From the IMG/VR virus record IMGVR_UViG_3300018018_000001, positions 62,001 to 126,000 of that record: DNA of 64,000 nucleotides, one strand, 5' to 3'. Each line of letters begins with the position of its first letter. Within the stretch, counting starts at the first letter, position 1. Positions 32,703 to 51,610 of the stretch are shown one piece after another. The DNA comes from a virus. The notes beneath the pieces are model-generated. The model did not search any database. It was not told the DNA's origin and saw only the letters and a program-made list of their open reading frames with translations. The position numbers were made by a program, and so were the translations under genes.

Positions 32703-33399
32703 GATAAAACTCCTTTCTTATTCGCTCTTTTATCTTGTCCAAATTTTTTAATTCCTTCCCCCAAATTACTAAAGTCTGATAACCAAAAGGTTCAAATTCT
32801 TTAGCTCTATTCATGGGTGAATCCCCCCTATGCCAGTGCTCTCCAAAAAATTCTATAATCTATTTCTTTCCATTCACATTAACAAAATCAGGGCATTTAC
32901 CATTTATAATTAGTTGACCATCACCAACAAACTTCCATTCATTATTAAAATTATTATTCAGCCAGGATTCAAGAAACAATTCATACTTATTTGGTTTTAC
33001 ATTTAATGCTGAAAATATTCTCTTTGCATACTCTTCATTTTTCCATAATTCCTTCATGATTTTTGAATGTTCCATTCTTTTCTTACCAAACCAATAATTC
33101 TTTTCACCTTTATGGGATTCACTTATTTTTCTTATTGTATCCTCAGTTTTATTTACTCCTGGATTGTTTATTTTCATTCTCTTTGACTGTTCTGGGTTTT
33201 TCTTTCCTAATTGAGTTCCAGGTTTTCCAAACATTGGATTACCGGAGCCAGTATTTGCTTTACTTAAATTTTCTTTCCACTCTTTAGTGTGTTGTTTCTT
33301 TTTAACTGAGGGGCATTGATTCCAACTTTCAGAACAACACCATTTACCATTTTTAAATTGATATTTGGCTTCTTGCTCACAGCCATAATTACAGATCAT
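32689..33399 (-). pseudogene. Amber-interrupted EDxHD homing endonuclease
   Basis: Reads from ATG 33399 to TAG at 32862-32860 (179 codons). The same frame continues after the TAG with IIEFFGEHWHRG and LVIWGKELKN, the catalytic block of the Vsr-like family, to a TAA at 32691-32689. In the paralogue at 185 this codon is CAG (Gln) in VNGKKQIIELYGDYWH. So one C-to-T change truncates it before the catalytic residues. The N-terminus is a zinc motif (ICNYGCEQEAKYQFKNGKWC) shared with HNH genes at 55165 and 61525. NUMOD3-like repeats follow. Confidence 0.85.
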
Positions 33400-35216: not shown

Positions 35217-37415
35217 CTATTTATGGGTTTTGTTTTTCTCTATTAATCCTGCTTGAATTAAAATTATGGTCCCCACCTTGCTCATTTTATCACGTGGAAA
35301 GTATTGAGAGATAAATTTCATTGTAGATCCTTTATCTTTCATTATGTCAAATCCTGCCAGGTTAGCTTTTGCCCAAACCTCATTAACCTCTTTGGCCAAT
35401 ATCATCCTCTCTCTGGCCCATTTCCAAGCTTTTTGGATCTTGGTTGCCGATTTGTTTATCAACTCATGGGAATATTCTTCCAAGAGAAGTGTTTCAAAAT
35501 TTGCAACAGTTGGATCTGAATTGTCTTCAAAGGTGTTGAGGGCTGTATTCTTTAATGCTATCATGGGAATAGAACCAGAAGCTGCCCAATGAATTTTTTC
35601 TATTTCCTCAGGTTTACAGTTATGGACTATACCGGCAGTTGTAACAAAATTATGTGTATCTTCAACATCTATGCAGTATAGTGATTTTTCTTTTTTAGGA
35701 AGAGTGGATTCAGTAACAATGGCTATATCTAATCCAGGTATTCCAAGACCAATATCATATACTTTGGGATTATATTTAGGAGCATCTTTTGTTACTTTTC
35801 TTCTCATGCAGGGAATGATATATGAACCTATTTTTTTCATTAATTCTCTTGTTCCATCTGCATTGAAAATGATAACATTTTGGGTAGTTATACTGCAACC
35901 ATTAATTCCATAATCAGATAATTTCTTTATCAAAAATTCAATTTCATCCTTGGAAAATCCCATTGTTGCTAATGTTGCGATTCTCCCCCCTGATAAACTT
36001 CCGTCATCCATGTACCAAATTGCTAACATTAAACTGGTTAATTCAATGTCTTTCGGAACCATTTTTTTACCATTTGGATACCATTTTTCTCTTAATTGAG
36101 AACACCATATGCAAGATTCTGTACTTACTTGCCATGAATTATTTGCTAGGCTTTCTCTATATTTTTGCATATCTAACTCAAATTCCGATTGAACAAATTC
36201 ATCTAATAATTTAGATTTAAGTTTGGAATAAAGAATATCAGTTTGAGAGAAACGTAATCTTCTTTCTCCTTTGGATATGGAAGCATCCCCAAGTAAGGTT
36301 CCAATAACAATTTCCATCTGTTTTTTATTAGGAGCTAATTCTCCGGTATAGACTACTCTATTGCTTAATTCACCAGCGGGAATTTCTCCTTCTGGAGTAA
36401 TCCATTTATGGTCAACAGTTGAATTAACTCCTCTATAACCCAAAGAAGTTTTAACAGAATTTTTTAATCTGACACGGCACATCTCTCTACCTTCAAGTTT
36501 TGATTTGTGCCAACCATTTACAAATCTCCACCCTAAAGATCCATCATTTAATAAAGTTGCAACCTCTATTCTTAACTTATTTTGAACAATTACACCTAGT
36601 TTTATCCATCCATTTCTTGTCAAAACTGAGGTTCTATAATCTAAACACTTATACATCCTCCAGGATGCTCCCCCGATATAAGCATATATTACCATACCTT
36701 CAGTGAAAAGTCCATCAATATTTTTTATGGACATAGATTCTCTGAAATTATTATACATTGTGGTCAGGACTTCACTTGAGAGTATGGCCTTTCCGTAAGA
36801 TCCCCCTACAGGTAATTTTGTACCACTAACCAAATTAAGCATATTTGGAGGATTAACTTCGGCATCCCATATCTTTACCCCGAATAGGAAATTAACATCC
36901 AGAGGAACAGAATACTGGATTGTTATCTGATTTCTGAAACCAAATAACTCAAAGGAAAGATTGTATTCTGGGTTTGACAGGATTAACCGCATGATCCAGG
37001 AATTTTCTTGTAGACACTCAACCCACATTTGCTTAAATGGGTTGAATTGTGAATCTTGAATAACAGGGGTTAGTCTTGTTTTGTAGGTTATGTATTTTTT
37101 ATTTTGATACCAATAGGCATATGCCAAAACATTGGTTCCATCCAGTTTGTCCCATATCCTTATCTCATGAATATCAGGCCATTGGTAAGTCCCATTTTTG
37201 TCAAAGGGATAGTGAAGCTTTGGGGTTCCATAAATGACTTGTTCACATGCTTCACCATTCACTCTAAAGATTACTAAGGCCCCATATCTGTGATCTCCCC
37301 GGTTACAAAGATATCCATAAAGCCGATTGGGGGAATTAAAGGTATCCTCTACCTCAAATTCCTTCAAGTCTTTGGGGTTATCCAGGCCAAGTAATTCAAG
37401 AGCACGATTAATCAT
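35217..37415 (-). CDS. RNA ligase, interrupted by an intein
   Basis: A nucleotidyltransferase-type RNA ligase split by an intein (residues 257-599). Motif I is IWDKLDGTN (candidate lysine K90), then YKTRL, a motif III-like FELFGF, motif IV LFTEGMV, and motif V after splicing WRMYK|CK. Spliced length is about 389 residues. The intein falls inside motif V between K256 and the second lysine. It may repair host nuclease damage to RNA such as tRNA. The upstream gene at 37419 may be a partner. Confidence 0.88.
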   Translation of the reverse strand: MINRALELLGLDNPKDLKEFEVEDTFNSPNRLYGYLCNRGDHRYGALVIFRVNGEACEQVIYGTPKLHYPFDKNGTYQWPDIHEIRIWDKLDGTNVLAYAYWYQNKKYITYKTRLTPVIQDSQFNPFKQMWVECLQENSWIMRLILSNPEYNLSFELFGFRNQITIQYSVPLDVNFLFGVKIWDAEVNPPNMLNLVSGTKLPVGGSYGKAILSSEVLTTMYNNFRESMSIKNIDGLFTEGMVIYAYIGGASWRMYKCLDYRTSVLTRNGWIKLGVIVQNKLRIEVATLLNDGSLGWRFVNGWHKSKLEGREMCRVRLKNSVKTSLGYRGVNSTVDHKWITPEGEIPAGELSNRVVYTGELAPNKKQMEIVIGTLLGDASISKGERRLRFSQTDILYSKLKSKLLDEFVQSEFELDMQKYRESLANNSWQVSTESCIWCSQLREKWYPNGKKMVPKDIELTSLMLAIWYMDDGSLSGGRIATLATMGFSKDEIEFLIKKLSDYGINGCSITTQNVIIFNADGTRELMKKIGSYIIPCMRRKVTKDAPKYNPKVYDIGLGIPGLDIAIVTESTLPKKEKSLYCIDVEDTHNFVTTAGIVHNCKPEEIEKIHWAASGSIPMIALKNTALNTFEDNSDPTVANFETLLLEEYSHELINKSATKIQKAWKWARERMILAKEVNEVWAKANLAGFDIMKDKGSTMKFISQYFPRDKMSKVGTIILIQAGLIEKNKTHK
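35619..36647 (-). mobile_element. Intein in the RNA ligase (LAGLIDADG type)
   Basis: A 343-residue intein, Cys257 (CLDYRTSVLTRNGW) to Asn599 with +1 Cys. Block B is STVDHKWIT. The two LAGLIDADG-like helices are IVIGTLLGDAS and LAIWYMDDGS. The C-terminus is IVHN|C, the only one of the four inteins with the normal His-Asn ending. Fully open. Confidence 0.93.
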
Positions 37416-37950: not shown

Positions 37951-37990
37951 GTAATAGTCTCTTCGGCAAATCTTCAGAAATAGTTTAGCT
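37951..37990 (-). promoter_or_regulatory. Early-type promoter motif, - strand
   Basis: Reads AGCTAAACTATTTCTGAAG followed by TTGCCGAAGAGACTATTAC. It is closest to the copy at 56931 (CTAAACTATTTCTA ... TTGCCGAAGAGATATATA). It overlaps the stop of the outer-membrane spanin gene and points to the 37871 gene and RNA ligase, so those genes can have their own unit. Confidence 0.65.
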
Positions 37991-38264
37991 ACTTTTTAAC
38001 AGCATCCAAAGAATTTTTATAGCAGGAGATTGTACCCTCTAACTCCTTGGAATATTTGACGATAGCATTCATATTGTCCAGGACTTGGTTGAAATTGTCC
38101 GGGTGAGCTATCGTTTTGTTCATGTCCAATGGTTTGGGTGTCGGTTTCAATGGGACTGGGCATTGGGGGATTGGACATTGCACTTGGCTTATTTTTGGGC
38201 TGCAACTCGCTAGAATTAAACCACAAAATAACGTCATTGTAAATACCCTTAGCTTCCTTTTCAT
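37989..38264 (-). CDS. Outer-membrane lipoprotein spanin (Rz1-like)
   Basis: ATG 38264 follows GGAGG. The 91-residue product has a signal peptide ending in a lipobox (FCGLILASC), then a Pro-rich stretch (CPIPQCPVPLKPTPKP). Its start lies inside the i-spanin gene in another frame and its stop lies beyond it, the classical Rz/Rz1 overlap. With the i-spanin it would fuse inner and outer membranes at the end of lysis. A Gram-negative host is implied. Confidence 0.8.
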   Translation of the reverse strand: MKRKLRVFTMTLFCGLILASCSPKISQVQCPIPQCPVPLKPTPKPLDMNKTIAHPDNFNQVLDNMNAIVKYSKELEGTISCYKNSLDAVKK

Positions 38265-38748
38265 AATCATATCCTCCAAAGTAGTAAGTTTCTGGCACTG
38301 GTGGGCCAGTTATTGTCCCTGTCTCAGGGGCAGGGGTTGTTTCTACAGGCTTATTTCCCTCTTGGGTAGGGGGTGTAGCCACTCCAGGGGTAGATATGAT
38401 TCCAGGGGCTGCTGGAGGCGTTGGCTTAACCACTACTCCAGGAACAGGCTTAGCACAAGTCTTTTTCAAGGCATCAATCCTATTTTGAAGATCTTGGGCC
38501 TTTTTCTCAATATCCTGAAGGTTTTGAATCTGAATCAACAAGGCATCCCGATTTTGGGTCAATTCCTGATTGACTTTCTTTTGAGCTTCCAGGCTACTTG
38601 TTAGGGTAAGTACCTGATTTTGTAACTTTACTATATCCCCTTTCTCATAAAGATGAAGGGCTCCTAAATACCCACTGGCTGCCAAGAGAAGAACAATAAT
38701 AATGTTCTTAGGATTTTTCAAAATATTGAGTATCATTGTCATCCACAT
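38017..38748 (-). CDS. Inner-membrane spanin-like protein (Rz-like)
   Basis: An N-terminal transmembrane helix (NIIIVLLLAASGYLGALHL) is followed by a coiled coil (VKLQNQVLTLTSSLEAQKKV onward to about residue 92) and a long Pro-rich C-terminal part. The gene overlaps the Rz1-like lipoprotein in another reading frame. Length is longer than typical Rz. It sits in the - strand block, away from the + strand endolysin. Confidence 0.78.
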   Translation of the reverse strand: MWMTMILNILKNPKNIIIVLLLAASGYLGALHLYEKGDIVKLQNQVLTLTSSLEAQKKVNQELTQNRDALLIQIQNLQDIEKKAQDLQNRIDALKKTCAKPVPGVVVKPTPPAAPGIISTPGVATPPTQEGNKPVETTPAPETGTITGPPVPETYYFGGYDYEKEAKGIYNDVILWFNSSELQPKNKPSAMSNPPMPSPIETDTQTIGHEQNDSSPGQFQPSPGQYECYRQIFQGVRGYNLLL

Positions 38749-38769: not shown

Positions 38770-38799
38770 TGTAAGAAAAATTACCTATTTTTTCTTACA
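38770..38799. promoter_or_regulatory. Perfect inverted repeat between the GT4-GT9 gene and the spanin genes
   Basis: An 11-bp perfect inverted repeat, TGTAAGAAAAA (38770-38780) and TTTTTCTTACA (38789-38799), with an 8-base loop. It lies in the only gap between the glycan operon and the spanin genes. It could be an operator, terminator or RNA-processing hairpin. The stem is AT-rich but has a T-run on one arm. Confidence 0.6.
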
Positions 38800-38801
38800 A
38801 T

Positions 38802-41051
38802 TTATTTTGGTGATTCTGTTTTCACTATATCTTTTTGAAGAAATCTGAGTAATTCTCCCTGAAATTTTTCTACTGTGGGGAGATTAAGGCATCGGGGTTC
38901 ATGAAGTAAGCAAGTTTCCCACCACCCCTCCCCCACTACGGCATTCCAGAAACAAGGATCACAGGCCCCTGTGTGAAGAAGAATATCATTGGAATTCTTG
39001 TAGAAGAACAACTCTGGAGGAGTGCATGTTTGCCATACCATTGATGGGGTTCCTACAGAGTGAGCAAGATGATAAAGAAATCCCTCTAATCCAAAATATA
39101 AGCTGGCTCTTTTGAGCACATTGGCCGAATCCATAATGCTCAATCCTCTGAAATCAAGGTCTACATCCTTAATCAAATCATCATCTTTTGGTCCCAATTG
39201 GGCTATGGGATAAACCCCTTTGGCTATTCTTAAAATTTCACTTAGTTCTTCATCTTTGATGCATTTCAAGTTTCCTACTGTTCCTACATTATTATGGACT
39301 ACAATAAACTTTTCGGGTAAGGTATCCACGCCATTTGGCAGTTTAGTAGATTTATAATCTATATCAAAGGATAAATCTTTGATACTTGCATACTTTTCCA
39401 ATCCACAACTCTTTAACATCAAGTCAATTACGTGCATTCCAAGTTGTTTCAATCGGCAATTGGAAAAGGCCCACCCATTGTAAAATTCAATATACTTATT
39501 GGCAAATTCATTATTCTCTTCTCCATAGACTCTACTGACATATCGAACATCATAAAGAGTATCGAAAGTATGCAAAAGAGATTTCAGGACAGTGTTGTAA
39601 TGGACTCCTTTTTCCAGAGTAACATAGTCTACTAATCCAGGTTGAGTTAATAGAATCTCATCCCCCTTTTCAATGATCGCCACAACCCATGCTTTGGGAT
39701 GCTTTCTCCGGATTCCCTTTAATACAGGGATAAGCTGAAGAGTATCACCATACCCACCTAATTTGATTACCCCGATATACTTTCTTCCTTTCAATAATTT
39801 CTTGGCTTCTAAAGCCATGGTCCTAAGAGGTACATTTATTGGGGCAAAGAAATAGGGTCTAACAGGTTCCAGTTTAACTTTGGATAAATTATCTACCTCT
39901 TCTTTCAATTTCTCATAAGAGGCTTCCCAAGAATATTTCTGGACCCACTCATAAGCCGTATCTGTTATTTTCTTGGCCCTTTTCCCCTCTTTGTATTTCC
40001 AATCATCATACAAATCATTCAGAGTATTTACTATTTTTTGCTCAGAAGGGATAGCCATTTTCTGTCCTTGATCCCCTGTTATCCAAGCGGCTACATCAAT
40101 CAAACAACCTCTACCCTCAGACAAAATTTCTGTTCCTGAGGTATAATCGGTTCCTATTGCTACTATCTTTGCAGCCATGGCTTCCAGGTAGGGTAATCCT
40201 AATCCCTCACAAGAGCTATTCAGAAGAAGGGCATGAGATTGAGCATAGATTTTGGCCAATATATCATCCTTTAGAATTTTTCCTGTTCCTGAAGCATCTA
40301 CTAAGTTAATCTTTAATCTCAGGCCGGGGTAATGGGGGATTATATCCAGAAGATCATACCCCTCAGGATCACGGGCTGCGGTGACTAAATACAAAACTGT
40401 ATCATCCTTTTTCTGTGAAAATTTGTGAAATGCCTCAAGGCTTAGGGGTATCTGCTTTCTTACACAATTTTTGGATACTACCAGGACCGTAAACTTATTG
40501 GATTTTGTTTGTTCTTTTACAGCCTTGTCAAATAGATCCAAATCAACCCCATGATATATGACTTTAATATTTCCATTATCAGCATTAACTTTGGAAGGGT
40601 AATCTTTTAGAACTCTAGCTCCCCAGTAAGAAGTAGTTACAACTTTATCAAAAGAATCAAGAATTTCACAGTAAGCAAGACTCAAGGGAGAGGAATCTAT
40701 GTTAATATATCCTAAAACTTTCATTCTCTTATCCCTGTGGTCCCTTGATAGGTTATATTCATTCTTTATGGAGGGTAGGATTCCGAAATGCCAAAGATCT
40801 CCATGACAGAATAAAATATCAGGGGCTATCCTTAGAATATGGCCAGTAAGGGCATCCCTGTCTAATCGGCTACCTATTGGGTGAGTTACATAGGGTAATT
40901 TTATATCAGTTTGTTTATAATTGTATCCAGTACACTCCACATGATACCCATCCCTATGAAATCTGTTAGCCAATTCCCGACAAGTTTTTCCCATTCCCGA
41001 ATAGCTTTGAGGGGAATCAGTCACGAAAAGAATTTTAGCTTTTTTATCCAT
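38802..41051 (-). CDS. Two-domain glycosyltransferase (GT4-like fused to GT9-like)
   Basis: The first half (to about residue 400) is GT4-like: SYSGMGKTCRELANRF, VIYHGVDLDLF, then SSCEGLGLPYLEAMAAK with the E-x7-E pattern. The second half, from about residue 425, begins IGVIKLGGYGDTLQLIP and ends with a GT9-like (heptosyltransferase) segment (LYFGLEGFLYHLAHSVGTPS). Such a fusion could add two different sugars to one chain. It is the last gene of the cluster. It overlaps the next gene by one base. Confidence 0.82.
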   Translation of the reverse strand: MDKKAKILFVTDSPQSYSGMGKTCRELANRFHRDGYHVECTGYNYKQTDIKLPYVTHPIGSRLDRDALTGHILRIAPDILFCHGDLWHFGILPSIKNEYNLSRDHRDKRMKVLGYINIDSSPLSLAYCEILDSFDKVVTTSYWGARVLKDYPSKVNADNGNIKVIYHGVDLDLFDKAVKEQTKSNKFTVLVVSKNCVRKQIPLSLEAFHKFSQKKDDTVLYLVTAARDPEGYDLLDIIPHYPGLRLKINLVDASGTGKILKDDILAKIYAQSHALLLNSSCEGLGLPYLEAMAAKIVAIGTDYTSGTEILSEGRGCLIDVAAWITGDQGQKMAIPSEQKIVNTLNDLYDDWKYKEGKRAKKITDTAYEWVQKYSWEASYEKLKEEVDNLSKVKLEPVRPYFFAPINVPLRTMALEAKKLLKGRKYIGVIKLGGYGDTLQLIPVLKGIRRKHPKAWVVAIIEKGDEILLTQPGLVDYVTLEKGVHYNTVLKSLLHTFDTLYDVRYVSRVYGEENNEFANKYIEFYNGWAFSNCRLKQLGMHVIDLMLKSCGLEKYASIKDLSFDIDYKSTKLPNGVDTLPEKFIVVHNNVGTVGNLKCIKDEELSEILRIAKGVYPIAQLGPKDDDLIKDVDLDFRGLSIMDSANVLKRASLYFGLEGFLYHLAHSVGTPSMVWQTCTPPELFFYKNSNDILLHTGACDPCFWNAVVGEGWWETCLLHEPRCLNLPTVEKFQGELLRFLQKDIVKTESPK

Positions 41052-41590
41052 TATTTTACTCCTTTCAAATTTAAAGAAAACGAAATTTGATTTCCTTGAT
41101 TATCTGGTAGCCACCCCCCTGAAACATCCATTCCTTTTCCAGTGGAACTTTCTACCCAAGGTTTAAATCTTTCAACATTTTTAAGTCCAGCCTCTTCCAT
41201 AAGATTAAATAGAGAAAGGCTTGTATATCCCCATTTGTGGATATCCCAAATATTGACTTGCCAGCCATACATGATTTTAATCCAATCATTTTTCAATATT
41301 GGGTCTATTGCATCATTAACCATCCTGGATACAGTTTCAATATCCGGGACCGCTAACCACAAAGTACCTCCATCTTTAAGCATTTTTACCCACCTGAATA
41401 CTAATTCTTCTCCTATATCCCTGGAAAAATGTTCAAGAAGGTGACTGGAATAGATTTCTTCACATGATCCCTCAGGCATTATGAAATCAATTGCATTTGA
41501 GCAAATATCAGGTTTTAAGCTTGGATCTATATCTACTAAAGTCCAATCGGGTCCGGGTCGATGGGTTGATGATCCTAAACTGATTTTCAT
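41051..41590 (-). CDS. SAM-dependent methyltransferase, 179 aa
   Basis: Methyltransferase of the class found with sugar biosynthesis genes: DWTLVDIDPSLKPDI, then SCEEIYSSHLLEHFSRD and GGTLWLAVPD. The S-H-L-L-E-H and G-G-x-L-W-x-A-V-P-D patterns are typical. The substrate may be a sugar or glycan. Part of the cluster from 38802 to 49030. Confidence 0.78.
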   Translation of the reverse strand: MKISLGSSTHRPGPDWTLVDIDPSLKPDICSNAIDFIMPEGSCEEIYSSHLLEHFSRDIGEELVFRWVKMLKDGGTLWLAVPDIETVSRMVNDAIDPILKNDWIKIMYGWQVNIWDIHKWGYTSLSLFNLMEEAGLKNVERFKPWVESSTGKGMDVSGGWLPDNQGNQISFSLNLKGVK

Positions 41591-41601
41591 ACTATTTCCT
41601 T

Positions 41602-42210
41602 TTATTTTAATACAGTATAACAGACAAGTGATTTTTCAAATGATATAACATCCATTTTGGTGGCTATTTCATTTTTGATATACTTAGTTATTAAATGCCA
41701 AGGTTCATTATCACTTAGGGAATAGATAAAGTCATGCCAAGCTATTATTTTAGGGGGTGGGGCATTACTTTTTTTTAATCCCTCTAACGCTAACTCTGAG
41801 TCTGCTTTTGCCCCATTATAGGTATGATCACCATCTATGTATACCATAGCAAGATTGGTAAATGTTTCATAATTTAAGGTTTTAGAATCACATTGGATCA
41901 TTGACACATTTCTTGCATTTTTACACCATTTGCCTCTTTCAGTTCCGGGCCAATCTATTCTTTGATCCTTATGCATTACGACAGGATCAGGGCAATCAAC
42001 AGTGTATATATGTTTGTTAGGATTATACTTAGCTAATAGACAAGTTGTATGACCAAATTGTGTTCCAATTTCTAATATGTTTCCACTTATCTGTTTGGAT
42101 AGCCATATAAGTACTTTAACATCAATAAGAGGGGTGCTTGTATGTACCTCTTTAAGTAGTTCTACGTCAGAATTTAAAATTTCTTCTGGGTAAGGGTGTA
42201 TAAGTAGCAT
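41602..42210 (-). CDS. SAM-dependent methyltransferase (cephalosporin-hydroxylase-like), 202 aa
   Basis: Motif I is NILEIGTQFGHTTCLLA, followed by IYTVDCPDP, then MVYIDGDHTYNGAKADSELA, the pattern of Methyltransf_24 and cephalosporin hydroxylase-like proteins common in carbohydrate clusters. It ends IIAWHDFIYS. Operon member; it could methylate a sugar or lipid-linked glycan. Confidence 0.78.
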   Translation of the reverse strand: MLLIHPYPEEILNSDVELLKEVHTSTPLIDVKVLIWLSKQISGNILEIGTQFGHTTCLLAKYNPNKHIYTVDCPDPVVMHKDQRIDWPGTERGKWCKNARNVSMIQCDSKTLNYETFTNLAMVYIDGDHTYNGAKADSELALEGLKKSNAPPPKIIAWHDFIYSLSDNEPWHLITKYIKNEIATKMDVISFEKSLVCYTVLK

Positions 42211-42215
42211 AGTAG

Positions 42216-43004
42216 TTATTCCTCCTCTTTTTCTATACGATGTTTATCTTCAAAAATATCACAAGGATTGCAATATCCTACATCTGGACATAGCATACTT
42301 GTTATTCCTTCTTGTAACCAATCATCAAGTAAATTTCCTTTTATTCCTTTTTTAGACTGGGTATACATAAAGTAATGGCAAAAGTAAATATCACCAAGTG
42401 GAGATACTATATCTTCACCAAATGTAAAGCATTTGGCAGCAGGTTGTTTTTCATTATTACACCTATAAACCAGATGATGAGGATTAAATGAACCATCTGG
42501 TCGATATCCTATTCTTGGTAAGAAGCTATTACCAAAGTATTCAAATTCTTCCTTATCTGTTATAGGATCTACTAAAGCTGAATAGTGAGTTCCAACACTC
42601 TTAAATTTGGATCTTAGTAAAGATATTTTTTCACAATGTTCTTTAAATCCAATTTGGGTAGAATGATATGATAATTGGAATCGTTGAATGCTGTTTGGAT
42701 TCAGTTTCATTAAGGTATTCACCCCCTGATCTGAGGTATTGGAAGCTATGTCAATCTCTTTAAATTTGCTATAATCAATACTATTGACAATCTCAACAAA
42801 CCCCTCATGTAGAGTAGGTTGACCTCCTGTAATAACTAATTTGTCAACCCCGGATAGCTTATTTATGGCGGTTATCCAATCCTTAGCATCTCTTCTAGGA
42901 TAGTTACGTTTATATCCTTTATTAAACTTATTAATACAATAAGAACAATTAAAATTGCAGTCCAAAACCAGAAATAAATGACAGACACTTGATGGAAATT
43001 TCAT
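42216..43004 (-). CDS. Radical SAM enzyme
   Basis: The 4Fe-4S cluster motif is CNFNCSYC (Cys 16, 20, 23), followed by a VDKLVITGGQPTLH stretch that is the typical GGEP-like SAM-binding loop. A C-terminal Cys group (CFTFGEDIVSPLGDIYFCHY, then CPDVGYCNPC) resembles a SPASM-type auxiliary iron-sulfur site. It could modify a peptide or sugar. It overlaps the gene upstream at 43001 by four bases. Uncommon in phages. Confidence 0.85.
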   Translation of the reverse strand: MKFPSSVCHLFLVLDCNFNCSYCINKFNKGYKRNYPRRDAKDWITAINKLSGVDKLVITGGQPTLHEGFVEIVNSIDYSKFKEIDIASNTSDQGVNTLMKLNPNSIQRFQLSYHSTQIGFKEHCEKISLLRSKFKSVGTHYSALVDPITDKEEFEYFGNSFLPRIGYRPDGSFNPHHLVYRCNNEKQPAAKCFTFGEDIVSPLGDIYFCHYFMYTQSKKGIKGNLLDDWLQEGITSMLCPDVGYCNPCDIFEDKHRIEKEEE

Positions 43005-43675
43005 TTAGAATCTCCTTGTTTTTTCTTGATTATCATAAAATTCCTAAGGGACTTGGTAACACTGTAGGAATCTATATCACTTATTAGGTTTCTTCCAATT
43101 ACTTCGTCAATATCTTTAGCAACATGAGGGAAATCAACATAATTGTAGTCATGAATAGTCATAAATTTTAAAGTGACGGGCCAAAATCTAAGGATGTCTT
43201 TTTTTGCTTGAGACTCCCCATGAGCACCATCTATATGAATCCAATCATATGTTCTTTGAAATACTGGGCTGTTAGTTTGTCCCTCAGGCATAGTATCTAA
43301 ATTAAAAATGGACCATAGTATATTATCTAAATGAGGAAATTTACTGGAGTGAAGATTTTTGAAGCTATTTATAAGCCTTCTGGCTATATCATTTGAGTTT
43401 TCAATATAGGATTCATTATCTATACCTATATACTCCTTTAACCTGTGAGATCCTAACATAATGGCGCAAGCCGACATTCCTTTGTATACTCCTATTTCTA
43501 ATACAGATTCAGGATTAATCATATAAGCAATGTTGTAATAAGCTTCATATTCTATGTCAATAGTCTCACTAGTAATTGACAAACCCATTCCCTTATGAAT
43601 AATCTTAAATTTTTCTACTTCTGCAGAAAGAATTTCAAAGGATGCTTCTTTCAATAAATCATTGATAATAGCCAT
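43001..43675 (-). CDS. SAM-dependent methyltransferase (Methyltransf_24-like), 224 aa
   Basis: Motif I is SVLEIGVYKGMSACAIML, followed by EYIGIDNESY and YDWIHIDGAHGESQAKKDI, and later MTIHDYNY. It is a close functional cousin of the 41602 gene and probably carries out a similar O-methyl transfer. It overlaps the radical SAM gene by four bases. Confidence 0.78.
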   Translation of the reverse strand: MAIINDLLKEASFEILSAEVEKFKIIHKGMGLSITSETIDIEYEAYYNIAYMINPESVLEIGVYKGMSACAIMLGSHRLKEYIGIDNESYIENSNDIARRLINSFKNLHSSKFPHLDNILWSIFNLDTMPEGQTNSPVFQRTYDWIHIDGAHGESQAKKDILRFWPVTLKFMTIHDYNYVDFPHVAKDIDEVIGRNLISDIDSYSVTKSLRNFMIIKKKQGDSK

Positions 43676-43701
43676 ATAAGTTCTCCATAAGTTTTAAAAT
43701 G

Positions 43702-44553
43702 TTACCTGATGTATTTATTTCCTTCTTCAATCATAAGTTTGATCTCTTCACGAATCTCCTTGATTGTAAGTTCAAGAAGTTTGTTAAATACTATGTCATT
43801 TTTGATAAGAGATCTAAATGTTCTAAAGAAATTAATTTGATCATTAGCTTGACTATGAGGATTAAATAATATTTTCCAATATCCTGGTTCTCTTGAGTTA
43901 CCAAGATGGAGGCCAGAAGTTCCTAACCATAGACCCTTTGTTATAGGGATTCCAGCTTCTTCCACCATTTTAGTAAATGCCCATAAATTAGTAAATTTCT
44001 TAGTAATGGGATTATTAAATTCCTCAGGTATTCTACCAGTTTTTCTTATTTTGTCCCTATATTTGACAAGAGTGGGCCATATAGCGTTATACCACTCTTT
44101 CCTTTTGCAGAAATGAATTCCGGTCATTTTCTCAATTCCATCTATATCAGTAAAGGTGCCATTTGAATAGAAAGTATCAAATTCATTCATTCTGGCCAAA
44201 TGACTCTCCATCAAACTTGGTTTTTGTTTCATTATGAATATATCAATATCTCCATAATAAAGATATTCAAACTGATCTGTATGGTCATTTCTTACAATCC
44301 ACCGTAATATTTTAGTAAATTCACTATATATTGGATAGTCTTGAAATTCTATCTCTATCTTGTAGTTTTTATTATCAACAAGAGGGAGCATTTGATCTTT
44401 AACTACTCCACATAATGGTTGCCTTATGGCTATGTAGGTATTGATATTTGGATAAGCCTTACCAAGAAAATATAAGAAAAATGGTATATAATGCTCATAC
44501 CTTTCTGTAACTACATAGTAGATAAGACATAGTTTACTTTCATCTTCTTTCAC
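43702..44553 (-). CDS. Glycosyltransferase-like protein (GT-A fold), 283 aa
   Basis: The fold is suggested by CLIYYVVTERYEHYIPF at the start and the acidic stretch YLYYGDIDIFIM, which could be the metal-binding D-x-D. The rest (LWLGTSGLHLGNSREPGYW) resembles family 6 or related GT-A glycosyltransferases. Substrate unknown. Four-base overlap with the next gene. Part of the cluster. Confidence 0.65.
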   Translation of the reverse strand: MKEDESKLCLIYYVVTERYEHYIPFFLYFLGKAYPNINTYIAIRQPLCGVVKDQMLPLVDNKNYKIEIEFQDYPIYSEFTKILRWIVRNDHTDQFEYLYYGDIDIFIMKQKPSLMESHLARMNEFDTFYSNGTFTDIDGIEKMTGIHFCKRKEWYNAIWPTLVKYRDKIRKTGRIPEEFNNPITKKFTNLWAFTKMVEEAGIPITKGLWLGTSGLHLGNSREPGYWKILFNPHSQANDQINFFRTFRSLIKNDIVFNKLLELTIKEIREEIKLMIEEGNKYIR

Positions 44554-45101
44554 TTTTCTTTTTCCTTATAAATGAAAGTCATGGGAATCCATGAATTTGG
44601 GAATTCTTTAATCTTATCCCATCCATTGTCACAGATAATTTGATGACACCTAGGATTATTATAAATAATAAATCTTTCCTTTTTTAATCCCTTCTGTTGA
44701 TTTATTTTATGCATTACTCCTGTTACAATTTGACAGGGGAAGGGATTATACATATAAAAATAATTATATTCAGAATAATTAGGAAAGGTAATAGCATTCT
44801 GGTTATAGATTATGCACCTATTATCCCTTAAAATCCTAAAATTGTTTTCTGCTCTCTTTGCAATACATTCAGAGATTTCTATTCCTGCAATTTTCTTGAA
44901 AGAAAATCTAAGCATTATTGACATTGCACTTCCTAAGCCACATCCTATGTCAATGATGGTATCTTCCTTTGTAATTTTTAAATCCATTAGTACGTTAGCC
45001 AGGAATTCATTGCCGGACGGTGAAGAGCGATTTACAAGATTTGGATCTAATCCCACCTCTTGTGGCTCTATTACTGATTCAAAATCTACTTTTCTATTCA
45101 T
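44550..45101 (-). CDS. SAM-dependent methyltransferase, 183 aa
   Basis: Motif I is TIIDIGCGLGSAMSIML, followed by KIAGIEISECIAKRAE, a normal class I pattern. The C-terminal part has YFYMYNPFPCQIV and FIIYNNPRCH. It overlaps the neighbouring genes by four and eight bases. Probably acts on a glycan or nucleotide sugar. Confidence 0.75.
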   Translation of the reverse strand: MNRKVDFESVIEPQEVGLDPNLVNRSSPSGNEFLANVLMDLKITKEDTIIDIGCGLGSAMSIMLRFSFKKIAGIEISECIAKRAENNFRILRDNRCIIYNQNAITFPNYSEYNYFYMYNPFPCQIVTGVMHKINQQKGLKKERFIIYNNPRCHQIICDNGWDKIKEFPNSWIPMTFIYKEKEK

Positions 45102-45876
45102 GTTTCAATATCATTTCTTTAGAAACTATTTTAGAATCTAAAAATAATTGATCCTTATAAATTCCATATGTTCCACTGATACTGGAATCTATAGATTTTT
45201 TCCCATTTAAACAGCAATATTTAATCCAAAGAGTTAACATATAGAGTCCTATCCGATCTTTGTTAATAACGGAAGCTAAACCCCATAAGGATTGACTAAT
45301 ACCATCATCTATCATTGAACCAATTCCAATAACATTCCCATCTACGGTTAAAGTCATCATTTTGAACCATTGTGGGGGAATTTTAGAATATGGTTGGCGA
45401 ATACCATTTATGAATTCATTTCCGTTTGAATGAGACTGTCTACGTAGTTTATCATAAATTTCCTTAAAAATAAAATCGTTAAAAATAGTTATGGATAAGC
45501 AACCATGAAGTTTCTCATCCTTTTTCTTAAAAGTTTGCCTTGTGGGAAAATGTTTATTTGGTTTTTTACTAAGAATACTCCTTCGATCTAAGAAATCCTC
45601 AAATGTTGTTAGTCTACAAAACCAAAATGGATTTTGTCCAACCTTTCTATCAGGTAATTCTATACTACTATCATTTGTAAAAATAGGTAGTGGAGACCAT
45701 TGATGAATTAGGTTAGGGGCATACAAATAAACTTTTTTGTCAATTTCTTCAAGAATCATATGGCTATAAAAATATTCTATGTTAAACGAATAGTGCCATA
45801 AGTTACAGACTGGAAAAAGTTTTTTCTGTTCTATTATTTTTTTGGATTCAGCAATAGAGACAAGTGTTTCAAGCAT
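45094..45876 (-). CDS. Possible acyltransferase (GNAT/FemAB-like), 260 aa
   Basis: The C-terminal half has VIGIGSMIDDGISQSLWGLA and a following helix that resemble the acetyl-CoA-binding segment of GNAT or FemAB-type acyltransferases. The N-terminal half is not recognised. It could acylate an amino sugar. It overlaps both neighbouring genes, so it is translationally coupled. Confidence 0.5.
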   Translation of the reverse strand: MLETLVSIAESKKIIEQKKLFPVCNLWHYSFNIEYFYSHMILEEIDKKVYLYAPNLIHQWSPLPIFTNDSSIELPDRKVGQNPFWFCRLTTFEDFLDRRSILSKKPNKHFPTRQTFKKKDEKLHGCLSITIFNDFIFKEIYDKLRRQSHSNGNEFINGIRQPYSKIPPQWFKMMTLTVDGNVIGIGSMIDDGISQSLWGLASVINKDRIGLYMLTLWIKYCCLNGKKSIDSSISGTYGIYKDQLFLDSKIVSKEMILKHE

Positions 45877-46385
45877 TTTTCTAAATCCTCTCTTTTATAC
45901 CATTTATCAAATCTCCAGCTATGAAGGTATGCTATTTCATCCCTTAATGTATCATTTCCCATCATAACTATCTCAAGATTAGTCGTTTCCCCTGAAATTT
46001 TTAGTCCCTCAATAGTTTCAGGATAATTGCCTTCATTGAATGGGATAACGAAATAATCTGGTCTTAGACCCCAATAGCTTAGAAGTTCTTTCCCTCTTGT
46101 TATCTCTTCTTTTGAAGGAACATGGGTATGGTACAATCCATGTAAGCCTATAATGTCAGCCCTGGTTGTGAGGTAATCATAAACTCTTTCATTGTCTCTA
46201 AAGACATGAATACCAGAAATTCTTTTGATTTCATCATTATCCATTTTTACGTTTATCGGAATGACAGATCCTATTGGGGTAATTGCTTGGATAATTTTGA
46301 ATCCGTACCCATCGCAAAGTTCACAAAACCATTTGATATTATCTAAATTAGCATCGTAGGCTACATCGTCATTTCTTATGAGCAT
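45834..46385 (-). CDS. Polysaccharide deacetylase-like protein, 183 aa
   Basis: Starts MLIRNDDVAYD, where the D-D is the typical metal-binding pair of NodB-type deacetylases, then IIGLHGLYHTHVPSKEEI with the H-x3-H ligand pattern. It could remove acetyl from a sugar amine, fitting with the following acyltransferase-like gene. It overlaps both neighbours. Confidence 0.75.
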   Translation of the reverse strand: MLIRNDDVAYDANLDNIKWFCELCDGYGFKIIQAITPIGSVIPINVKMDNDEIKRISGIHVFRDNERVYDYLTTRADIIGLHGLYHTHVPSKEEITRGKELLSYWGLRPDYFVIPFNEGNYPETIEGLKISGETTNLEIVMMGNDTLRDEIAYLHSWRFDKWYKREDLEKCLKHLSLLLNPKK

Positions 46386-46843
46386 ATCACTCTCCAGTCT
46401 CTTTCAGGGACATGACTTACATGTTCTTTAGTGAAGTTAAGATTCTTGAATCCACAGACTAACAACAAGTTTTTAAGTTCTTCTTTTTCATAAACATAAT
46501 GATGGGTTACACAATGGGGTATTGCCTTGTCCTGATTTCCATATATTCCCCACATCCCATAAATATTTCCCTTAAGGTATAAGTTTATTGCAGCCGTTAA
46601 TTCTGTAAATTCTATAATCAGTTTTCCTCCCGGCATTAGAGCCCTTCTCCAATCTTTAAGGATAGCAGGAAATTCCCATTTGTAAAAAGATTCAATGACA
46701 TGAATGGCTACTATTTCTTCAACTGATCCATCTGGGTAAGGTAAGGTATTATATAAATCAAACTTAACATCAGCACCCTCACAAAGATCCAAGTTTAAAA
46801 ATCCAGAAATTTTTAAGCTTCCTCCACCCAAATTCAGTTTCAT
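46376..46843 (-). CDS. SAM-dependent methyltransferase, 155 aa
   Basis: Motif I is reduced to LNLGGGSLKISGFLNLD, followed by IVAIHVIESFYKWEF and ALMPGGKLIIEFTE. It is of the same general type as the 41051 gene. It overlaps the deacetylase gene by ten bases. Substrate unknown. Confidence 0.75.
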   Translation of the reverse strand: MKLNLGGGSLKISGFLNLDLCEGADVKFDLYNTLPYPDGSVEEIVAIHVIESFYKWEFPAILKDWRRALMPGGKLIIEFTELTAAINLYLKGNIYGMWGIYGNQDKAIPHCVTHHYVYEKEELKNLLLVCGFKNLNFTKEHVSHVPERDWRVICS

Positions 46844-46844
46844 G

Positions 46845-48233
46845 CTATTTCCTTTCCGCTTTGGCTATCAAGACTTTATAATTTTCATCGTTAGTATGTT
46901 CCCATTTGGTAATGTTGCAATTCTTGGATAACAATTTCTCTATTTCTTTTTCCTGAATTTGGAAATCATGGCCTAAATTTAACTGTTCTATAGTCCTTAA
47001 GTGAACCCAGATACATAATGATCCCCCAGGCTTGAGCATGGATACCATGTTATTTACCGCTTTCTCTACAAGATTCACGTTAAATTGAGTGCTATGATCT
47101 AATGCATTTATTGAAAAAATATAATCGCATGGTGGGACCGAATCAAGAGGTACATCCTCTATGGACATGGGTATTTTTTGTACTTCTTTTTTAAGTTTCA
47201 ATAAATTGTCTTTTTCATAATAGTCAAACATTGGATCTACTGCAATGGATTCTAGGAAAGAAGAGTTTAGGCAAGTTATTCCCCCAAATGGACCTGATCC
47301 GGCATCTAATATTACTTTTCCACTTAAATCTTCAGGAGTAAGTCCAAAACTGTTTAATAATTTAGTGTAGAGTTTAATGGGATCTAAGTATTGACCTGTT
47401 TTTAGCCAGTAATACATTTCATATCTTGTTTTGTCATTTATTATTTCACTCATCATATCCTCATACAGTTTTTTGAATTGTAAACAGACGTTCTTCCAGG
47501 AATACTCTTTTACTTGAGGGTATGTATAAAATTTTCCAATTCCTTTCTTAATCCCCTCTAAGGATCTCTCACATTTATGAATATTGTGTAAACTTGGGAC
47601 TCCAACATCAGTAGTAAGAACTGGCTTATTCATAGCTAAACATTCCATTACTGGATTGGCAAATCCTTCCTGATATGAAGCGCATACATACAAATCTATT
47701 GATTTATAATAATCAGGCATTTTATCAGGGGGTATGCCCCATGCTGGCTTGAATCTAGCTCCTAACTCATCACAAGCCTTTTTTATCAGATTGAAACCTT
47801 TATAATCGTCTTGAACCCCTGCAAAGCCCACAGTAAATTCATGTTGGGGGATATATTGGTCAAAAATACCATCAGGAATGTAAACGGAATTGGGAATCTT
47901 GGCAAGAAGTTCAGGATGAAGCACGTGAACCCTCTTAACCCTTGTTGACCATACAGGAAATAACTCTGGTGGGTATCGGAATGACCTGATTGACATTAAT
48001 GTTTTGTATCCTAATTCCTTTAAACCCTCTGGAAAAAAGACAACACCCCAATTCTGAAAATGAATTAAATCATGTTGAAATCCCAAGTCCAGAAATTCCT
48101 CTTTACTAATACTTAGAGGGGTATTATGAAGATAGCATTTTTTTGTAAACTCAAATGGAATGCCTTCAATCATTCTATCAGTTATCCTGCCTATAATCCA
48201 ACCGGGTTCATCAGCAAGAATGAGTATCTTCAT
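46845..48233 (-). CDS. Glycosyltransferase fused to a methyltransferase, 462 aa
   Basis: Residues 1 to about 265 are a GT4-type glycosyltransferase: MKILILADEPGWIIGR, FTVGFAGVQDDYKGF, and YQEGFANPVMECLAMNKPVL. From about residue 300 there is a class I methyltransferase (KVILDAGSGPFGGITCL, then IFSINALDHSTQFN and LKPGGSLCIWVH). The glycosyltransferase half is a close paralogue of the next gene. A single polypeptide could glycosylate and then methylate. Confidence 0.83.
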   Translation of the reverse strand: MKILILADEPGWIIGRITDRMIEGIPFEFTKKCYLHNTPLSISKEEFLDLGFQHDLIHFQNWGVVFFPEGLKELGYKTLMSIRSFRYPPELFPVWSTRVKRVHVLHPELLAKIPNSVYIPDGIFDQYIPQHEFTVGFAGVQDDYKGFNLIKKACDELGARFKPAWGIPPDKMPDYYKSIDLYVCASYQEGFANPVMECLAMNKPVLTTDVGVPSLHNIHKCERSLEGIKKGIGKFYTYPQVKEYSWKNVCLQFKKLYEDMMSEIINDKTRYEMYYWLKTGQYLDPIKLYTKLLNSFGLTPEDLSGKVILDAGSGPFGGITCLNSSFLESIAVDPMFDYYEKDNLLKLKKEVQKIPMSIEDVPLDSVPPCDYIFSINALDHSTQFNVNLVEKAVNNMVSMLKPGGSLCIWVHLRTIEQLNLGHDFQIQEKEIEKLLSKNCNITKWEHTNDENYKVLIAKAERK

Positions 48234-49030
48234 TTTGTTCCTTTTACTAACTCTTCATATAATTTTTTGAATTGCAAGCAAATATTTTCCCAAGTATATC
48301 CCCTAACCTGAGGATATGTACAGAATTTTTCAATTCCATTTTTAATTGACTCTATAGATCTCTCACAAGTATGAACATTAAGGAGTCTAGGTATGCCAAC
48401 ATTAGTGGTTAAAACAGGTTTGTTCATGGATAAACATTCCATCACAGGGGTTGACATTCCCTCCGCTATTGAGGCACAGACATAAAGATCTATTGAGTTA
48501 TAGTAAGCTAACATATCCTTGGGTTGAATACCCCAAGCTGGTTTGAATTTTACCCCTAATTCGATACAAGCTTGCTTTATTAAAGGGAACCCTTTATAAT
48601 CTCCCTGGACCCCTGCAAAGCCCACAGTAAATTCATGGTCTGGTCTGAACTGTTCAGAAATACCGTTTGGAATGTAAACAGAATTAGGAATTAGTTTAAT
48701 AAGATCCGGGTGAATTACATGGATTTTCTTAACAATTATTGACCATTTGGGAAACATATCTTGTGGATATCTGAATGATCTTACTGATAGTAATGTTTTA
48801 TGTCCTAATTTTTTTAAACCTTCTTCATGATAAAAAACGCCCCAATTTTGGAAATGGATTAGATCATTCTGTGATCCCAAATCCATGAATTCTTCATGGC
48901 TAATACTGTAGCAAGAATTTCCAAGATGGTATCTTTTTGTAAATTCAAATGATGGGATACCAGCAATTATTTTGTCGGTTACTCTATTTATAATCCAATT
49001 GGGTTCATCGGCAAGGATAAATATTTTCAT
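48230..49030 (-). CDS. Glycosyltransferase (GT4-like), 266 aa
   Basis: Very close to the N-terminal part of the 46845 protein: MKIFILADEPNWIINR, FTVGFAGVQGDYKGF, then IAEGMSTPVMECLSMNKPVL. It ends where the other protein's methyltransferase half begins. A recent tandem duplication. It starts at 49030, overlapping the next gene by one base, and heads the glycan cluster. Confidence 0.83.
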   Translation of the reverse strand: MKIFILADEPNWIINRVTDKIIAGIPSFEFTKRYHLGNSCYSISHEEFMDLGSQNDLIHFQNWGVFYHEEGLKKLGHKTLLSVRSFRYPQDMFPKWSIIVKKIHVIHPDLIKLIPNSVYIPNGISEQFRPDHEFTVGFAGVQGDYKGFPLIKQACIELGVKFKPAWGIQPKDMLAYYNSIDLYVCASIAEGMSTPVMECLSMNKPVLTTNVGIPRLLNVHTCERSIESIKNGIEKFCTYPQVRGYTWENICLQFKKLYEELVKGTK

Positions 49031-49574: not shown

Positions 49575-50138
49575 TTATTCTTCTTTTTCCTCCTTATTCT
49601 TTTTTTCTCCATCATGTAATTCTCTATGACAGTTAGAACAAAGAGGAGTAGTCTTTTTTAATTCTTCAATTCTTTCCGGTGTTATTATTGTATTCAATAA
49701 GTTACCAATATTAAACTTTTTTTCTTTTGGATCAGAATGATGAAAGTCAATAGCAGCAAAACATCTGTTATATCTACATTTAGAACATTTATCCATTCCC
49801 AATTCATGAATTAAAATCATCCATTTTTCTCTTTTAATTTTTTCTCTTAATTTTAATTCTTTTCTATGATTTTGATAATAACTTTTCATATAAGTCTTAT
49901 CCTTAGGGTGTAATTTTTCATATTTTTTATTACATTCTCTTATTTCTTTTTTGTGCTCTTTACGATATTTTTCTATGTAAATTTTCTCTTCCCTTGAATT
50001 CAATTTATGATATTTTTTATTTAAAATACTTTTTTCTTTTAAATGAAATTTACGGTATTCTTTATTGTAATCTTTAATCTTTCTTTTATTTAATTGATAA
50101 TATTTTTGATTATAGATCCTTATTTCTTCTTTAGTCAC
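49575..50138 (-). CDS. HNH homing endonuclease with helical repeats
   Basis: GTG at 50138 follows the previous stop at 50140-50142; an ATG at 50189 would overlap it. The first 110 residues are Lys/Tyr-rich helical repeats with a period of about 14-15 (YYQLNKRKIKDYNKEY types). The HNH core is DKCSKCRYNRCFAAIDFHH then TTPLCSNCHRELHDG. The repeat type is shared with four other HNH genes here. It interrupts the small-gene operon. Confidence 0.85.
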   Translation of the reverse strand: MTKEEIRIYNQKYYQLNKRKIKDYNKEYRKFHLKEKSILNKKYHKLNSREEKIYIEKYRKEHKKEIRECNKKYEKLHPKDKTYMKSYYQNHRKELKLREKIKREKWMILIHELGMDKCSKCRYNRCFAAIDFHHSDPKEKKFNIGNLLNTIITPERIEELKKTTPLCSNCHRELHDGEKKNKEEKEE

Positions 50139-50139
50139 C

Positions 50140-50544
50140 TCAGTTATTAGCCTCCCCCCACAAGTTAATTGTCTTTGTTGGTTCATCAAATATTAAATCC
50201 GCTCTATCTCTCATAACCCCTTCGCAGAATAGACATATCCTTTTCTTAACTCCACCTTTAACAAAAGTCCAGGTTGAAGGTACACCCTCTTTTTCACAAT
50301 GCCCACAAATTATAATTTCAATTTTGCTGAGGTCAGCTAATTCCACATTCATTCCCTTTTCCAAAATTAAGACAGGGATTTGAGGATACCCCGCAGCTTT
50401 CAGGAAATTTTTGAATCCTCTGGTCATGGCTTCATAGAGTTGCTTGTCAACAAATTGGTCTACTCTAACAATAAAGATTTCCCCTGGCTTTAATTCCAGT
50501 TTGGCAACATCAAAATTTCCGGTGAAATTTAGGTTAGCATCCAT
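50140..50544 (-). CDS. Hypothetical protein with two Cys pairs, 134 aa
   Basis: Contains IICGHCEKEG and RICLFCEG, which could form a zinc site. The N-terminal 80 residues are strand-rich. I do not recognise it. It overlaps its upstream neighbour by one base. Confidence 0.65.
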   Translation of the reverse strand: MDANLNFTGNFDVAKLELKPGEIFIVRVDQFVDKQLYEAMTRGFKNFLKAAGYPQIPVLILEKGMNVELADLSKIEIIICGHCEKEGVPSTWTFVKGGVKKRICLFCEGVMRDRADLIFDEPTKTINLWGEANN

Positions 50545-51416: not shown

Positions 51417-51610
51417 CTTTTCCTCCCTTTCTTCTTGAAATCTAATTTGAGTTCTATATCCTCTCTCTCCAGTGATTTTAATAATTTGTCCATAAATTCA
51501 TCGGTGTTTCCGTACAGATTTCCGCTAACCCCCTTAATGGCATGGTCTGTTTTTAATTCCGAAAATAATTTATCAGAAAGGATAAGCTTAATTTCTCTCA
51601 TAATGGACAA
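51413..51610 (-). CDS. Hypothetical protein, 65 aa
   Basis: Begins MSIMREIKLILSDK and ends with a Lys/Arg tail (DFKKKGRKR). I do not recognise it. It overlaps the RNR gene by 13 bases, so it is translated from the same transcript. Confidence 0.6.
   Translation of the reverse strand: MSIMREIKLILSDKLFSELKTDHAIKGVSGNLYGNTDEFMDKLLKSLEREDIELKLDFKKKGRKR

Follow-up and report, generated by a model that had tools for sequence, protein, structure and literature searches.

An apparent pathway for a complex methylated glycan encoded on a phage

Background

Chloroviruses have mostly soluble glycosyltransferases of their own, with which they glycosylate the capsid protein in the cytoplasm; one of these enzymes, A064R, carries a predicted C-terminal methyltransferase (PMC5408694). 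Mycobacteriophages are described, in the work of Freeman et al. 2023 as cited in PMC12619734, as decorating virion proteins of the capsid and tail tube with their own glycosyltransferases. Cyanophages and jumbo phages of the T4 superfamily (P-SSM2, S-SSM6a) carry LPS/capsule clusters that combine several glycosyltransferase families with methyltransferases and are patchy between relatives (PMC7824862).

Here we describe a 12-gene operon in a 64,000-nucleotide stretch of viral DNA (the window; positions 62,001 to 126,000 of IMG/VR record IMGVR_UViG_3300018018_000001). Its parts are best read as a pathway for a complex methylated glycan, in agreement with an earlier sequence-only reading. Tentatively, at a rough probability of 0.48, we propose a cytosolic, chlorovirus-like phage pathway that assembles and methylates a glycan on a virion protein. 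The operon is a variant within the known phage glycan clusters, the core-gene status of its GT4-GT9 fusion being among the new points.

Results and discussion

Layout of the gene array

All 12 open reading frames were confirmed on the minus strand between 38802 and 49030, where the sequence-only reading had placed them. They are given here in transcription order, followed by an inverted repeat.

48230..49030, minus strand: GT4 glycosyltransferase a, 266 aa, first of a tandem pair (PF13692 E=9.7e-9, PF00534 E=6.6e-8)
46845..48233, minus strand: GT4 glycosyltransferase b fused to a C-terminal SAM methyltransferase, 462 aa (PF13692/PF00534 E=2.8e-9; PF08241 E=5.5e-5 at 309-408)
46376..46843, minus strand: small SAM methyltransferase, Methyltransf_11/23 type, 155 aa (PF08241 E=2.3e-5, phrog_6636 E=8.6e-8)
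45834..46385, minus strand: DUF2334/NodB-like metal-dependent deacetylase, 183 aa (PF10096 E=4.8e-7; NDD near the N-terminus, H82-x3-H86)
45094..45876, minus strand: orphan protein, 260 aa, possibly an acyltransferase (no profile backing)
44550..45101, minus strand: SAM methyltransferase, RrnaAD/DOT1-like Rossmann, 183 aa (PF00398 E=9.6e-7, PF08123 E=1.3e-6; PDB 3jwi E=5.7e-6)
43702..44553, minus strand: putative GT-A glycosyltransferase, 283 aa, GTG start (motif D102-I-D104 only)
43001..43675, minus strand: Methyltransf_24 methyltransferase a, 224 aa (PF13578 E=1.7e-9)
42216..43004, minus strand: radical SAM enzyme, 262 aa, C16-x3-C20-x2-C23 (PF04055 E=1.6e-10, phrog_13987 E=4.4e-16, PDB SkfB E=3.9e-6)
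41602..42210, minus strand: Methyltransf_24 methyltransferase b, 202 aa (PF13578 E=2.5e-9)
41051..41590, minus strand: small SAM methyltransferase, 179 aa (PF13489 E=7e-4, below cut-off)
38802..41051, minus strand: bifunctional GT4-GT9 fusion, 749 aa (PF00534 E=1.8e-9 in the N-half, phrog_2170 E=1.4e-37; GT9 via orthologues)
38770..38799, no strand: AT-rich inverted repeat with 11-12 bp arms, between the operon and a spanin-like gene

Successive junctions measure -4, +1, -10, -43, -8, -4, +26, -4, +5, +11 and -1 bases. Most genes do overlap, as had been claimed, at seven of the 11 junctions; the range is 1-43 rather than 1-42 bases, and the other four junctions are gaps of 1-26 bases. An AGGA/GGAG-like (Shine-Dalgarno-like) sequence stands just 5' of most starts. 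The gene array extends upstream beyond 49030, since an 86-aa ORF there overlaps the first GT4 gene by 1 base and genes on the same strand run on to 54.5 kb. At the other end, the inverted repeat is a candidate operon boundary. No sigma28-like promoter was found for the operon, and sigma70 promoter and terminator scans stayed at chance level.

Enzymes encoded by the operon

Three GT4 domains, those of the tandem pair and the N-half of the fusion, are backed by Pfam profiles. GT4 a and the N-half of its neighbour share 68% amino-acid identity, so the two genes read as a tandem duplication. The GT9 half of the fusion is recognised through orthologues only: the window copy has no Pfam match to this half, and its two orthologues match Glyco_transf_9 (PF01075) with E=3e-4 and 2e-4 (20.7 and 21.2 bits), just under the curated cut-off of 22 bits. 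This half resembles heptosyltransferases. Against the BshA (bacillithiol GT4) equivalog the score was 29.3 bits, where more than 273.7 is needed for a BshA identity. For the GT-A label given to 43702-44553 there is a D102-x-D104 motif; the protein matched no profile and no phage or plasmid sequence.

Near the C-terminus of the fusion, Cys 697, 700, 714 and 721 are invariant in three orthologues. The pattern resembles the four-Cys iron finger (C339, 342, 358, 370) of the protein heptosyltransferase TibC, one of the TibC/BAHT autotransporter heptosyltransferases, in which a heptosyltransferase-type GT-B domain has the cysteines in its C-lobe (PMC4358343); such a likeness would fit a protein acceptor. 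The spacing differs, x2-x15-x11 in TibC against x2-x13-x6 in the fusion, which is moreover joined to a GT4 domain, and TibC gave no entry in the fusion-profile search of solved structures. GT9 enzymes that act on lipid acceptors may often have four-Cys motifs too.

Five separate methyltransferases and a fused one had been counted, and all six domains are backed by profiles, that of 41051-41590 weakly; this last protein is a distant paralogue of 46376-46843 (BLASTP E=5e-7). The radical SAM and deacetylase-like assignments also held, through the PF04055 and DUF2334 matches. The Cys-rich C-terminus of the radical SAM enzyme suggests a SPASM/twitch-like region. A weak sequence match (32% over 112 aa, E=8e-3) links it to the radical SAM/amidinotransferase module of the T4-like Campylobacter phages CP220/CPt10 (PMC2853527), whose radical SAM genes lie in a swappable metabolic island; the annotated stretch of CPt10, unlike the operon, has no glycosyltransferase or methyltransferase cluster. 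The deacetylase-like protein had no match against phages. No profile supports the acyltransferase label put on 45094-45876, which had no Pfam, PHROG, PDB-sequence or phage tblastn match and an NCBIfam hit at chance level only. AlphaFold, run on single sequences without an alignment, gave unusable folds for this orphan (pLDDT 31.5) and for the putative GT-A (37.7).

An old core gene and eleven additions

The fusion occurs full-length in two sister phages (40% and 39% identity), both lacking the other 11 genes; these are the only two orthologues in the data searched, and the sister records are fragments. There the fusion, portal and terminase large subunit genes are neighbours in a conserved block. 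Identity percentages are 40.3/39.4/60.6 for the fusion, 42.7/42.2/60.5 for terminase and 38.8/40.3/60.8 for portal. Because it has diverged as they have, the fusion has the look of a core gene passed on vertically in this phage subclade, and the operon that of one old core gene with 11 genes as a later addition. The earlier description of one tightly coupled unit needs qualifying in this evolutionary respect, and the same co-divergence led us to reject a gain of all 12 genes in one event.

The 11 genes are patchy between relatives, the fusion being the exception. Queries with the radical SAM, acyl, GT4 and Methyltransf_24 proteins found no counterpart in the sister records, barring different GT4 and Methyltransf_24 genes in a more distant relative, G020. 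That phage has its own 21-gene O-antigen-like cluster, which includes WbqC, DegT aminotransferase, LicD and a cytidylyltransferase. The cluster lies directly behind genes for tail fibres and is read from their strand, a position that favours virion decoration; its sugar-nucleotide-type genes, typical of O-antigen loci, speak against it. Scans of close relatives in IMG/VR with the fusion, radical SAM and GT4 proteins, both scans of GTDB genomes and a megablast of the operon against phages returned nothing.

Possible targets of the pathway

The sequence-only reading left virion proteins, host surface sugar and nucleic acid open as targets, and named a match to a known DNA-base hypermodification set as the finding that would count against it. 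The best-known task of phage glycosyltransferases is to glucosylate hydroxymethylated DNA bases (PMC12619734), and the MT-A70 and N6_N4_Mtase methylase families occur elsewhere in this genome, both in keeping with DNA or RNA hypermodification through glycosylation and methylation. However, PF00303 (the thymidylate synthase/dCMP hydroxymethylase family), positive in 9 of 14 control genomes, is absent from the record, the families of the other scanned proteins include no deazaguanine genes, and the 12 proteins include no T4-type AGT/BGT family (Pfam/PHROG). DNA hypermodification was rejected for want of PF00303 and, with hydroxymethylase and deazaguanine-type genes both missing, a modified nucleic acid is a very remote prospect.

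The radical SAM, deacetylase, acyl- and methyltransferases and glycosyltransferases might instead make a small-molecule or peptide glycoside, a diffusible secondary metabolite or signal that aids the infected cell. The SPASM-like radical SAM enzyme is akin to RiPP maturases, Iyer et al. proposed a secondary-metabolite cluster in cyanophage S-SSM6a, and metabolic genes also occur elsewhere in the phage (lysine 2,3-aminomutase family and PvlArgDC). Yet four or five is a large number of glycosyltransferase domains for such a product, and no precursor peptide, NRPS/PKS, carrier or transporter gene was recognised in the cluster, so we consider it improbable.

The main rival is remodelling of the host surface. 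During infection the enzymes would use lipid-linked precursors of the host to build LPS core/O-antigen or capsule, or to cap it, and so keep rival phages from adsorbing or progeny from re-adsorbing to debris, as proposed for the cyanophage clusters. P-SSM2-type clusters with added O-methyltransferases in jumbo phages offer a published precedent (PMC7824862). The best named glycosyltransferase profiles for the operon are exopolysaccharide, teichuronic acid or LPS enzymes, and the heptosyltransferase-like GT9 half, the O-antigen likeness of the G020 cluster and the patchiness of the 11 genes point the same way. The operon shares with P-SSM2-type clusters the grouping of several glycosyltransferase genes with methyltransferases. 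Unlike them, it is methyltransferase-heavy, with GT-methyltransferase and GT4-GT9 fusions, and has a core gene that co-diverges with virion genes; it also lacks sugar-nucleotide genes (NAD epimerase/dehydratase, sugar kinase, nucleotidyltransferase) in searches of 12 proteins in Pfam/PHROGs and ten in NCBIfam. Flippase, polymerase, ligase and initiating glycosyltransferase families had no match among the 12 proteins, and the operon holds no undecaprenyl-phosphate transferase. GT4 and GT9 enzymes are also classic LPS-core enzymes, cytosolic and dependent on host flippases, so the missing flippase weighs little. No lysogeny module appeared in the parts covered by scans aimed at other features, and any host-surface benefit would then need to come within a lytic cycle. 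Host-surface remodelling is possible, if somewhat doubtful.

A virion protein is mildly favoured over the host surface, because in the sister phages the fusion stands alone, as a core gene next to packaging genes. Hydropathy, a crude method, found no membrane-span-like stretch in the 12 proteins (maxima 0.80-1.32). A profile of the three fusion sequences had as its best solved match the chlorovirus NY-2A GT4 B736L (PDB 3oy2, E=8e-9, positions 73-399), GT4s being a large superfamily and B736L itself biochemically uncharacterised. Chloroviruses PBCV-1/NY-2A resemble this phage in their soluble, virus-encoded multidomain glycosyltransferases (A064R, A111/114R, A546L/B736L) and in a GT-methyltransferase fusion (PMC5408694). 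Their pairing is GT34-like with methyltransferase, against GT4-methyltransferase and GT4-GT9 here; they are eukaryotic algal viruses with an unrelated capsid, and in the phage we only infer the acceptor. Mycobacteriophages, as far as the cited description goes, are alike in having phage-encoded glycosyltransferases that act on virion proteins, and belong to a different phage group.

A proposed pathway

For glycosylation of a virion protein we propose the following, with acceptor, step order, substrates and both orphan functions as suppositions. The ancestral GT4-GT9 fusion would add two successive sugars to the acceptor or a core glycan, its GT4 half retaining and its GT9 half inverting. The duplicated GT4s and the putative GT-A would lengthen the glycan from host NDP-sugars, and the methyltransferase fused to GT4 may couple sugar transfer to methylation. 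Up to six methyltransferase domains could place methyl groups on oxygen or nitrogen, at hydroxyls or amines. N-deacetylation of a sugar may fall to the DUF2334/NodB-like enzyme and re-acylation of the freed amine to the orphan next to it, and the radical SAM enzyme might alter a sugar by C-H chemistry. Such a glycan would serve to shield the phage particle or to diversify it.

A more specific version, which we regard as rather unlikely, has the ancestral virion-linked GT4-GT9 enzyme glycosylate a virion protein directly in the cytosol, with lineages extending the stub by exchangeable cassettes into a chlorovirus-like, variable capsid or tail coat. The cassettes in this phage would be methylation, radical SAM and deacetylation/acylation.

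Conclusions

If virion decoration is true, bacterial viruses would have reached a methylated glycan coat comparable to that of chloroviruses, one that they encode themselves and assemble in the cytosol with a core bifunctional glycosyltransferase and swappable cassettes. The purpose of large phage glycan clusters, particle shielding versus host-surface change, would then become testable.

The operon and its enzymes

The 12 ORFs of the operon (38802-49030) are all present as the sequence-only reading described them, and Pfam assigned enzyme domains as follows.

Enzyme domains of the operon (minus strand, in transcription order)
48230-49030, minus: GT4
46845-48233, minus: GT4 N-half and methyltransferase C-half
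46376-46843, minus: methyltransferase domain
45834-46385, minus: DUF2334
44550-45101, minus: methyltransferase domain
43001-43675, minus: methyltransferase domain
42216-43004, minus: Radical_SAM
41602-42210, minus: methyltransferase domain
41051-41590, minus: methyltransferase domain (weak match)
38802-41051, minus: GT4 N-half

These matches bear out the proposed pair of GT4-like genes, which are tandem duplicates (68%), the five separate methyltransferases and one fused, of which the small 41051 and 46376 proteins are distant paralogues, and the radical SAM enzyme. They also bear out the deacetylase-like protein, where an NDD near the N-terminus and H82-x3-H86 are retained, residues that a NodB-type metal site requires. 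For the proposed GT4-GT9 fusion, Pfam supports the GT4 half, while the GT9 assignment of the C-half comes through orthologues only (PF01075, E=3e-4 and 2e-4). The GT-A (43702-44553) and acyltransferase (45094-45876) labels found no support in Pfam, PHROGs, NCBIfam or PDB sequences; the first protein has only a DxD (D102-I-D104), and the second has no motif either.

Junctions in transcription order are -4, +1, -10, -43, -8, -4, +26, -4, +5, +11 and -1 bases, and a Shine-Dalgarno-like sequence lies just 5' of most ORF starts. Chance is excluded as the origin of a 12-ORF run in which the majority match enzyme families of one functional theme. Position 49030 is not the start of the array: an 86-aa ORF overlaps its 5' end by one base, and same-strand genes run upstream as far as 54.5 kb. 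The other end of the array is at 38802, where a 53-base gap with an AT-rich inverted repeat (38770-38799) separates it from a spanin-like gene.

The phage and its host

The window (bases 62001-126000 of a 181,621-base IMG/VR virus record) comes from a T4-superfamily phage that has a contractile tail, with baseplate and tail fibre genes. Its major capsid protein shares 44% identity with the capsid proteins of a group formed by Rhizobium phage RHph_Y65 and its relatives (Kleczkowskaviridae), and its tail sheath (6481-8322) about 44% with the same group. The same species has been assembled more than once, since a 49.5-kb IMG/VR contig spanning other parts of the genome has an identical terminase.

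Spanin-like genes adjoining the 3' end of the operon
38017-38748: membrane-anchored coiled-coil protein, resembling an inner-membrane spanin
37989-38279: small ORF, lipoprotein-like with a LASC lipobox, overlapping the end of 38017-38748 in a different frame

This spanin-like pair suggests a Gram-negative host.

The phage genes elsewhere include one for a FliA/WhiG-type sigma factor (L004:8570-9313; TIGR02479, E=3.4e-51, just below the model cut-off). Sites that follow the pattern CTAAACTTTTT-N10/11-GCCGATAAGA or GCCGAAGAGA, about 20 in number and mostly intergenic, agree with the FliA promoter consensus; none lies in front of the operon.

Sites of this pattern
54608, 54893, 56633, 56952, 60158, 60897, 62165, plus: in the window
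37967, 34540, minus: in the lysis region that borders the operon on its downstream side

Their resemblance to flagellar sigma28 promoters would be consistent with a phage regulon on a flagellar-type sigma.

The record also encodes a KamA-family radical SAM protein (L003:8915-9784; lysine 2,3-aminomutase AblA, E=4.7e-84; subfamily TIGR00238 over cut-off) and a pyruvoyl-dependent arginine decarboxylase (L009:7630-8169, genome 173630-174169; PF01862, E=1.6e-54; TIGR00286 over cut-off). It carries an unusually heavy load of homing endonuclease-like (HNH/AP2-type) ORFs, about 35 in a few paralogous families (in the window, for example, 4450-5097, 5743-6282, 32860-33399, 49575-50189 and 55165-55887). 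Intein-like insertions lie in an RNA-ligase-like protein (35217-37415; a LAGLIDADG intein) and in ribonucleotide reductase (51598-54063), and the latter has intein-like sequence in common with the 25152-27029 protein. In one relative, G005, the terminase frame (1425 aa) is split by inserts.

One probably old gene and eleven probable newcomers

A scan with a capsid alignment found 29 related contigs. Full-length fusion relatives occur in G006 (100 kb; 751 aa) and, by an alignment-based scan, in L050/G024, both without the remaining operon genes and in a common gene block, with the genes for the terminase large subunit and portal a few genes further downstream. Among the three phages, the fusion has identities of 40.3/39.4/60.6%, against 42.7/42.2/60.5% in terminase and 38.8/40.3/60.8% in portal, a divergence like that of a core gene. 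Its GT9 half is more conserved (46/44%) than its GT4 half (35/35%). No fusion match was found in G014, G019, G020 or G005, further relatives with a terminase match; sister records may be incomplete.

The proposed search for the same operon in other phages recovered the fusion alone: with the queries tried (radical SAM, acyltransferase-like, GT4 and Methyltransf_24), the other 11 genes had no counterpart in the sister records. The radical SAM query gave chance-like fragments only and the acyltransferase-like query nothing, while GT4 and Methyltransf_24 families, the fusion itself aside, appeared in G020 only. RHph_Y65 has no such cluster in the region behind its tail genes. By this distribution, the operon would combine one old core gene with eleven newcomers.

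Analogous clusters
L060:361-18235 (relative G020): about 21 genes, O-antigen-like, on the strand of the tail fibre genes and directly after them; GT2, GT4, Methyltransf_24 and other methyltransferases, LicD, WbqC, DegT aminotransferase, hexapeptide transferase, sulfotransferase, cytidylyltransferase and a B12-type radical SAM gene
L063:10001-14785 (L062/L063, a phage unrelated to the window phage): compact, beside a ClpP-like gene; GT4, GT2-methyltransferase fusion, epimerase and two further GT2-like genes

The G020 GT4 is weakly related to the tandem GT4s (E=4e-8). Given these analogues, large phage glycan clusters and glycosyltransferase-methyltransferase fusions recur.

What the proposed glycan may be put on

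A methylated-glycan pathway remains the best reading of the operon, and the finding is real. Decoration of a virion protein is the best explanation of its product, at a little under one chance in two: the fusion acts as a core gene and sits in the packaging block, none of the 12 proteins has membrane spans, and the operon holds no flippase, polymerase or initiating transferase. Among solved structures, the fusion profile matches chlorovirus B736L best (E=8e-9); in that system, the capsid protein is glycosylated in the cytoplasm by the virus's own soluble enzymes, one of which carries a predicted methyltransferase as a fusion partner. The GT9 half has four invariant cysteines, recalling the TibC protein heptosyltransferase, although their spacing differs. 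Delivery to the host surface stays a strong competitor, since LPS-core transferases are likewise soluble and require no flippase of their own; the enzymes resemble LPS and exopolysaccharide families, and the G020 cluster is O-antigen-like. Modification of nucleic acid is very improbable: the record yielded no member of the PF00303 family, and there were no deazaguanine genes in the scanned sets, which covered ORFs of 170 aa or more and so are an incomplete inventory.

Phage glycan clusters as such are of a known kind, and those of the jumbo cyanophage P-SSM2 type have been read as host-surface modification (PMC7824862). What is new is that a fused GT4-GT9 enzyme acts as a phage core gene and that, in one lineage, a methylation-rich set of genes has been added to it.
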